Shown here: positions 443 to 852 of the stretch, one piece after another
How positions within the stretch are numbered: the stretch's first letter is position 1
Layout: every line of letters starts with the position of its first letter
DNA from: a virus
DNA length: 25,179 bases
IMG/VR virus record: IMGVR_UViG_3300029914_000127
Coordinates: 1-25,179 of that record
Direction: 5' to 3' (one strand)
Made by a program: the position numbers and the translations under genes
The notes under the pieces: generated by a model
What the model was told of the DNA's origin: nothing
What the model saw: only the letters and a program-made list of their open reading frames with translations
Databases searched by the model: none

Positions 443-654
443 CAGAGTTGTTACTACTAGACTTTAACATCTAGCGGGGATACCACTTCGGATTTCCCTC
501 TCCCGTTTCGCTTAGTTATAGCGGGAGTTCAGACTATCGCATCACCTTTCGGTGCCCTCTCACTTAGTCGTTCACGGTGCTTTCGCTTCCGCCCTGTCAC
601 CCGCTGCCGGGCTTCCAAGTCAATCAGAGTGGGTTTAAACTCGTCTACAAGTTA
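443..654 (-). ncRNA. Group I self-splicing intron in the major capsid gene
   Basis: A 212-nt catalytic RNA element with no ORF. On the minus strand, exon end CUCGUU (660-655) pairs with GACGAG (645-640) to form P1 with the diagnostic U-G pair at the 5' splice site. UUGUA (650-646) pairs with exon-2 start UACAA (442-438) as P10. GACUA (569-565) pairs with UAGUC (536-532) as P7. P8 is CACC-GAAA-GGUG (554-543). A P5-like CCCG/CGGG stem, a GAAA-capped P6-like hairpin, a P9 stem CUCCCG/CGGGAG (527-522 with 505-500) and a CUAGA/UCUAG hairpin (474-470 with 461-457) are also present. The last intron base is G (443), as required. P3 and P4 are less clear by eye and no subgroup is claimed. An in-frame UAA follows exon 1 at once, so unspliced message would give only a 26-residue peptide. 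Confidence 0.93.
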
Positions 655-732
655 AACGAGGTTACGGATTTCTTTATCTGTATACAGGGTTTTCAGCGCT
701 GGAATAAACGCTTGATTGTCTAAAATTGACAT
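655..732 (-). CDS. Major capsid protein, exon 1 (26 codons)
   Basis: First exon of the capsid gene: ATG at 732-730, then 25 codons ending in NLV at the 5' splice site. The peptide starts MSILDNQAFIPALKTLYTDK, like the N-termini of related capsid proteins, and the ribosome site AAGGA lies 9 bases before the ATG. The next bases after codon 26 are TAA, the first three intron bases. Joining to exon 2 restores NLVYKNNPFLA without changing a codon. The ribosome site is inside a 10-bp inverted repeat (735-744 and 811-820). It is too short to be noticed as a gene on its own, and an automatic annotation would probably start the capsid gene inside exon 2. Confidence 0.85.
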
Positions 733-734
733 TT

Positions 735-820
735 GTCAGTTTCCTTATGGGTAAATAAATTTTTAATTCAAAACTTTATTTTGCCGTGTTCTCATTGAAC
801 ATTAGCGCCCGGAAACTGAC
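735..820 (-). promoter_or_regulatory. Inverted repeat covering the capsid ribosome binding site
   Basis: In the 120-base gap between scaffold stop and capsid start, the minus strand carries GTCAGTTTCC (820-811) and its exact complement GGAAACTGAC (744-735), 66 bases apart. The second arm includes the GGA of the capsid Shine-Dalgarno. Each arm is directly preceded by the same heptamer CCCATAA. If the arms pair in the mRNA the ribosome site is masked. The loop is AT-rich. The pairing is seen in the sequence; the regulatory role is inferred. Confidence 0.5.
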
Positions 821-852
821 TTATGGGCAGATGTAACTTTAGCTGCGTAACC

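Follow-up and report, generated by a model that had tools for sequence, protein, structure and literature searches.

Why does the coding sequence of a major capsid protein (MCP) stop after 26 codons and resume 212 nucleotides (nt) further on? The question is raised by the first 732 positions of IMG/VR virus record IMGVR_UViG_3300029914_000127, which was analysed over 25,179 nt (positions 1 to 25,179, the window). On the minus strand, exon 1 of the MCP gene (655–732; MSILDNQAFIPALKTLYTDKEIRNLV) ends in CTCGTT, as indicated by its reading frame and by an intact continuation in a close relative. The following 212 nt (443–654) start with the codon TAA and end with G. Exon 2 begins YKNNPFLAMVPKFEGF (TACAAA at 442) and runs off the window start, so that only a part of it (2–442) lies in the window. 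Once the 212 nt are taken out, V26 is joined in frame to Y27. A sequence-only reading had proposed an ORF-less (open reading frame-less) group I intron with exact splice sites in the MCP gene. The analysis presented here leads to the conclusion that the minus strand of 443–654 is almost certainly a group I intron in this gene. The case is built on relatives, since the single sequence of the window is not decisive by itself.

Alleles with and without the insert were found when viral contigs were scanned with exon 2, which returned eight loci (L002–L009). Four of them (L003–L006) carry the same 212 nt, identical to the window intron. In a near-identical phage without the insert (L002) the gene reads uninterrupted (EIRNLVYKNNPFLAMVPKFEGF; EIRNLV-YKNNPF), and two further homologues lacking the insert, L007 and L008 (the latter with KDLVYKKNPLLAIMPKD), also read straight through. 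Extra residues at the site in intron-free homologues, which the sequence-only reading had named as a check, are thus absent from these three, and the proposed splice sites and the in-frame joining of V26 to YKNNPF are borne out by the continuous gene of L002 together with the agreement of P1, P10 and the terminal G. The window and L002 differ by 12 mismatches between −12 and +41 of the junction and by none in −177 to −13 or in 42 to 106; farther from the junction they diverge again. Such an island of mismatches is expected if the intron was gained or lost together with short flanks by recombination. L002 has C, not U, where the last base of exon 1 lies.

As a separate observation, in the eighth locus (L009, 1–2957) an ORF resembling, by eye, an HNH/endonuclease VII nuclease precedes the MCP gene at the point that corresponds to residue 15 of the exon 2 query. 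This is a different insertion, placed elsewhere, and the covariance model described below gives no match there.

The predicted structure of the intron, with all elements on the minus strand, begins in exon 1. The P1 5′ strand CUCGUU (655–660) pairs with the internal guide sequence GACGAG (640–645), with U.G at the splice site. The P10 5′ strand UUGUA (646–650) pairs with UACAA (438–442) of exon 2 over 5 bp. P3 is formed by 627–633 and 555–561. P4 (619–616/596–593) encloses P5 (612–608/603–599) within 593–619, and P6 (592–589/577–574) is followed by P6a (586–585/580–579) within 574–592. The guanosine-binding helix P7 pairs 565–571, with a bulged C at 570, with 531–536; it consists of GACTA/TAGTC and one extra A-U pair. 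P8 (543–554) carries a GAAA loop. Three P9-type stems, P9 (527–522/505–500), P9.1 (498–491/484–477) and P9.2 (474–470/461–457), occupy 457–527, and GUAACA with ACUCUG, the recurrent 3′ end of the lineage with its terminal G, occupies 443–454. P7, the capped P8 and the P9-type stems are present as the sequence-only reading had given them.

Whether these helices are conserved was addressed with related introns. A core pattern derived from the window's own core (scan A) found at least 119 stretches in viral contigs. Together with the window and other loci this gave 130 cores, of which 102 are distinct. P7 spacing is regular and the flank sufficient in 88 of the latter. Filtering to below 90% identity left 65 of these, and the alignment contains 64, since L043 was left out for its long P8 insert. 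In the 64 cores, P3–P8 with the P3 × P7 pseudoknot is paired in 96.2% of cells, 280 cells are double-changed against a shuffled mean of 75, and double changes occur at 19 of the 32 pairs. Pairing falls to 39–48% when the partners are slid as a control. None of 500 shuffles reached the observed value on four of five measures, and one did on the fifth. Covariation is seen in P3, P6, P7 and P8, pseudoknot included. All seven pairs of P3 are double-changed, with 98.7% of cells paired; P7 is paired in all 64 sequences, with double changes at four of six pairs and C (45) or A (19) as the bulge base. The last P6 pair is CG in 38 and GC in 26 cores. P4 is invariant across the alignment; the outer P5 pairs are formed in 64/64 and the inner two in 67% and 48%.

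The ends of the introns were compared in the same way. An alignment of 24 of the 70 distinct tails, the window included, has compensated double changes at 14 of the 17 predicted pairs of P9, P9.1 and P9.2, and GTAACA is present in the searched 3′ stretch of 71 of the 88 introns. A first automatic search for P1 found a helix ending 16–18 nt ahead of GACTTGG for 72 of the 102 cores; for some loci it placed helices elsewhere (distances of, for example, 36–59), and a fixed-distance version was therefore used in the P10 test. P10 was tested in 50 of the 88 introns, chosen for having a helix at the expected spacing and a short 3′ end that could be recognised; they are 195–273 nt long and hence biased to short introns. 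The mean P10 run in this set is 2.28 compared with 1.06 when permuted, and none of 2000 permutations was as high.

The window intron itself was searched with a covariance model (R1) made from 48 of the 64 cores; excluded were the window, seven cores that belong to the window's capsid family or are close to it, and eight judged irregular. R1 finds the intron at 128 bits (E 4.9e-28). It gives no second match within the 25-kb window, and none in L002, L007, L008 or two T4 stretches. The covariance search that the sequence-only reading had recommended is therefore answered in two ways: the lineage model matches strongly, and the Rfam models, which are silent in tested relatives as well, do not match.

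Several results speak against a group I intron or against its activity and have to be set beside this evidence. A search with all 4227 Rfam families gives no group I match in the window at E≤10, and at E≤1 Rfam has no match in 15 loci carrying relatives, one of them previously tested. In turn, seven of the eight classical intron phages searched, T4 included, are without an R1 match at E≤1. One P3 pair of the window is an A.A mismatch. The minimum-energy fold is ordinary (z −1.21, with 31 of 200 shuffles as good), and the P1 helix taken alone is not significant, as a run of at least 6 occurs in 22% of 50 shuffles. In 14 of the 50 introns tested, the P10 pair is absent at the predicted ends. Finally, splicing is a prediction from structure. 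Single-sequence folding was dropped as a deciding test because it is not decisive here.

Rfam was dropped as a deciding test as well, since the controls show that it catches classical phage introns and none of the tested relatives. RF00028 at E≤1 matches all eight classical intron phage records (four above its cut-off) and none of four lineage records; two loci with relatives, L011 and L013, also have no Rfam match at E≤1. Even the T4 nrdB intron is seen only below threshold, at 35.7 bits against a cut-off of 50. The RF00028 miss is not counted against the identity of the element, because the model is a detection tool and not a defining feature, and the tested relatives are missed too despite their defining structure. 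The silence of Rfam is also all that can be said for an insert of another type, be it a group II intron, a translational bypass element or an assembly chimera. Rfam names no other intron family in the window either, the same insert occurs in four other records beside a clean intron-minus allele, related inserts lie in many other contigs, and the P3/P7 pseudoknot of group I introns covaries. This explanation is scarcely credible.

A second alternative concerns function. A decayed or non-splicing intron would leave the MCP to be made from an internal ATG of exon 2 (LAMVPK), and exon 2 by itself does contain an ATG in an open frame, which spans 376 aa in the near-identical record G001. However, no Shine-Dalgarno-like sequence is seen by eye ahead of this ATG (AACCCGTTCCTAGCT), the structure of the intron is intact and four other records share the exact sequence found in the window. 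The frame of exon 1 is also kept, and in L002 its 26 codons continue without a break into exon 2. Decay is thus very improbable, if slightly less so than a different kind of insert.

With a functional group I intron as the preferred reading, the events at the MCP transcript can be proposed as follows. The pre-mRNA would fold so that the guide GACGAG, through P1, holds the 5′ splice site by its U.G pair. A guanosine bound in P7 would attack after U655, and the freed exon 1, aligned by P10, would then attack after the terminal G443. Ligation would join V26 to Y27 and remove the in-frame UAA, and full-length capsid protein would come only from spliced RNA. As UAA is the first codon of the intron, unspliced RNA is predicted to yield a 26-residue peptide. 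Dependence of capsid synthesis on splicing would follow from this stop codon. The sequence, the conserved structure, the intron-minus allele and the relatives are observed here; catalysis, splicing in the cell and the mode of movement we infer.

Does the lineage belong to a known subgroup of group I introns? A genuine intron of an already described subgroup that the single Rfam model misses, with a lineage that is not new, has nearly an even chance of being the truth. The Rfam seed is described as incomplete in PMC11878797, and, according to PMC12363816, subtype models detected the introns of Jug phages, which average about 206 nt. Similarity to known introns is also seen in phage Twort, where R1 has three weak matches (E 0.04, 0.13 and 0.76), all overlapping RF00028 places, two above its cut-off and one below; this overlap also counts in favour of the group I reading. 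Against a described subgroup stands the behaviour of RF00028 given above, which at E≤1 separates the classical records from those of the lineage. The silence of R1 in seven of the eight classical phages makes kinship with known subgroups weak. Subgroup IA (T4-like) has P7.1/P7.2 separating the 5′ strand of P7 from the 3′ strand of P3; the lineage has 3 nt there and no P7.1/P7.2.

Two further weak R1 matches (E 0.03–0.04) are noted at L014, 1440–1539 (Escherichia phage W70), and L016, 1422–1529 (Zobellviridae phage KZY1). Both adjoin genes annotated as primase/helicase pieces, and they are possible distant cousins of the lineage.

The host genes of the lineage were assigned next to the cores. 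Loci were counted among the matches listed, which applies to all counts in this paragraph. MCP genes hold 69 of the 102 distinct cores. The 119 stretches of scan A fall in MCP (91), ribonucleotide reductase (15), portal (6) and terminase (1) genes, with 6 unassigned. Scan B, which was anchored elsewhere, gave 106 new loci. R1 matches every one of them at E≤0.01 once or more, though in some the match lies away from the pattern; they comprise 60 MCP, 5 portal, 2 ribonucleotide reductase and 39 unassigned loci. Scan B is the fairer figure, since the gene profiles were trained mainly on scan A exons. Thirty of the 48 listed places without a gene label were scanned with PHROG families. Eight match MCP families (L157, L201, L207, L227 and L249; weakly L176, L202 and L233), six have tape measure proteins (L150, L180, L195, L196, L243 and L247), two have portal or connector proteins (L216 and L222) and one has an RNA ligase (L167); nine gave nothing at E≤0.001.

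An excess of this kind could arise from sampling, through oversampled phage groups and one old, vertically copied insertion, without any preference. The loci, counted among the matches listed and without dereplication, include many that are closely related, and on the intron tree the host-gene labels form clusters. The first pattern was also derived from the core of the window intron, and exons from that scan were the main training material of the gene classifiers. What speaks against this is the majority of MCP genes among the distinct cores and among the new loci of the differently anchored pattern, together with the number of sites. Four MCP families host the lineage: PHROG 1357, 283 (P22 coat), 9953 and 14242. 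About 26 insertion sites were mapped in four MCP families (approximately 8, 2, 11 and 5). Sites were placed only for introns mapped on both sides (36 of 38, 7 of 31, 42 of 77 and 6 of 18), and those less than 7 residues apart were merged; neighbouring sites may be a single one misplaced, which makes the total approximate; none of four was placed in three sets of one or two introns. Three loci have three strong introns in one MCP gene, L155 and L212 in a P22-like coat gene and L162 in the window's capsid family, and their exons follow the order of the MCP profile. Sampling as the whole explanation is thus unlikely, if clearly less remote than decay or another type of insert.

Four or five introns may be present in the genes of L110, L181, L194, L152 and L219 if weak model matches are counted; such matches of 23–50 bits in multi-intron genes were not taken as proven.

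A tree of the intron cores, built on 119 columns, has good support at 3 of its 61 inner branches. Host-gene changes number at least 22 without the unassigned rows and 26 with them, which is only a hint of movement between genes. Outside viral contigs, the first pattern was found once in a genome collection of 84,980 species. This match (L138, 995–1134) lies in an MCP-type gene on a 40-kb contig of a Verrucomicrobia metagenome-assembled genome, possibly a phage contig. Another relative (L139, 1986–2124) lies in Rhodanobacter plasmid NZ_CP088981, in a gene that profiles identify as ribonucleotide reductase. In its P4 a compensated change from U.G to G-C, unseen in the phage alignment, is visible by eye, and the gene table of the plasmid lists no gene at the place of the intron.

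A closely related intron lies near the window's own insertion site in another phage. L077 has an MCP that is 34% identical to that of the window over 140 aligned positions, and DNA flanking the intron that is 33% identical upstream (60 nt) and 38% downstream (120 nt). Its 204-nt intron, one nucleotide off the homologous position, matches the window's at 170 of 201 aligned bases (85% identity); an intron of L162 lies a few codons downstream of the window site. These sequences are most simply explained by horizontal transfer of introns into this stretch of capsid genes. The window intron has no listed ORF of at least 60 aa and hence no homing endonuclease of its own, as the sequence-only reading had noted. 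Six records of this phage group, all of them fragments, gave no match to HNH, HNH_3, GIY-YIG, Endonuclease_7 or LAGLIDADG_3. Recombination of short flanked segments is the most likely route by which the intron passed from phage to phage, and an endonuclease encoded elsewhere may have helped. The phage also encodes ERF, SSB and RusA, which could provide recombination functions.

Endonuclease-like ORFs were seen near other lineage loci: LAGLIDADG at L113, GIY-YIG at L084 and, by similarity, at L101, and NUMOD3 at L081. The nrdD gene of L013 also carries an intein domain.

The identity of the interrupted gene is supported by its sequence and its surroundings. The part of exon 2 in the window, from MVPK, matches PHROG 14242 major head protein (E 4.5e-5), as does the longer exon 2 frame of G001 from the same internal MVPK (E 1.3e-7). 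The AlphaFold model of exon 2 has a mean pLDDT (predicted local distance difference test score) of 44.7, too low for use in a fold search. Portal and terminase large and small subunit genes are the neighbours, which fits a head-packaging region. In the MCP leader (715–850, minus strand), GUCAGUUUCC pairs with GGAAACUGAC, and the latter overlaps the likely Shine-Dalgarno sequence of the MCP gene. The leader has a much better fold than shuffled sequences (z −3.82, 0 of 200 as good) and is nearly unchanged among L002–L006. Translational control of the capsid gene by this hairpin is possible.

Introns in capsid genes have been met before, and the view of the sequence-only reading that one in an MCP gene is unusual could not be upheld; the window's own relatives are also mostly in such genes. 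In mycobacteriophage LittleE (Cluster J) the MCP intron was proven to splice by reverse transcription PCR (RT-PCR) and N-terminal sequencing, as reported in PMC3706429. Like the window intron, it follows a U, ends in G and has intronless relatives according to that report; unlike it, it is 819 bp long and contains an endonuclease gene, which the paper (PMC3706429) describes as LAGLIDADG-like and the record as HNH. The intron of the minor tail gene of BAKA and Optimus, with splicing demonstrated by RT-PCR, is described in PMC3706429 as small (265 bp), without endonuclease gene and in a virion gene, as in the window, although the gene is a tail gene. The Tuc2009 record notes a group I intron in a capsid-region gene, major structural protein 4; there, unlike in the window, an HNH endonuclease gene lies just ahead of the second exon. 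LittleE, Baka and Tuc2009 all have RF00028 matches below the cut-off and no R1 match, the reverse of the window intron. For two other groups the comparison is by description only. MCP introns of crAss-like Delta and Zeta phages, one MCP being in five fragments, were identified mainly through endonuclease domains (PMC7886860), which the window's lacks. Introns of Jug phages are similarly small (37 of 76 in three re-analysed genomes with metatranscriptome support), whereas these are huge gut phages with terL, nrdD and DNA polymerase as examples (PMC12363816).

Among named phages, blastn and R1 place three others in the same lineage. Podovirus ctn9Y15 (MW202674) has the intron in a P22-like coat gene of another capsid family, Roseobacter phage CRP-118 has it between two pieces of ribonucleotide reductase, and Desulfovibrio phage 7757 has it in nrdD, followed by an ORF that is HNH-like by eye. 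In the MW202674 record the coat gene is split in two, and a hypothetical protein is annotated between the parts. Where annotation leans on Rfam the lineage is missed, and the capsid genes of such phages may therefore be entered as broken or as pairs of genes.

The window intron itself is a new example of a known intron type; a lineage that may be distinct and may favour capsid genes is the interesting part. The best explanation of the relatives is a lineage of compact introns, here nearly restricted to phage sequences, that repeatedly entered MCP genes. In the open-licence literature searched, no description was found of this lineage or of a preference for capsid genes across unrelated phages. 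We tentatively put forward a fuller proposal, which falls somewhat short of an even chance: a previously unrecognised, nearly phage-confined compact lineage would prefer capsid genes, with insertion at many sites of unrelated MCP families, stacked copies and passage between capsid genes of 34% identity. Its introns would often lack an endonuclease of their own and possibly spread either by reverse splicing into the abundant late mRNA of capsid genes or with endonucleases acting in trans.

The MCP gene is a common marker, and its product is needed in many copies. Splicing in this gene thus bears on phage biology and on marker surveys alike. The lineage also makes it testable how endonuclease-free introns reach new sites, and the covariance model together with the intron-plus (L003–L006) and intron-minus (L002) sequences provides the starting material.
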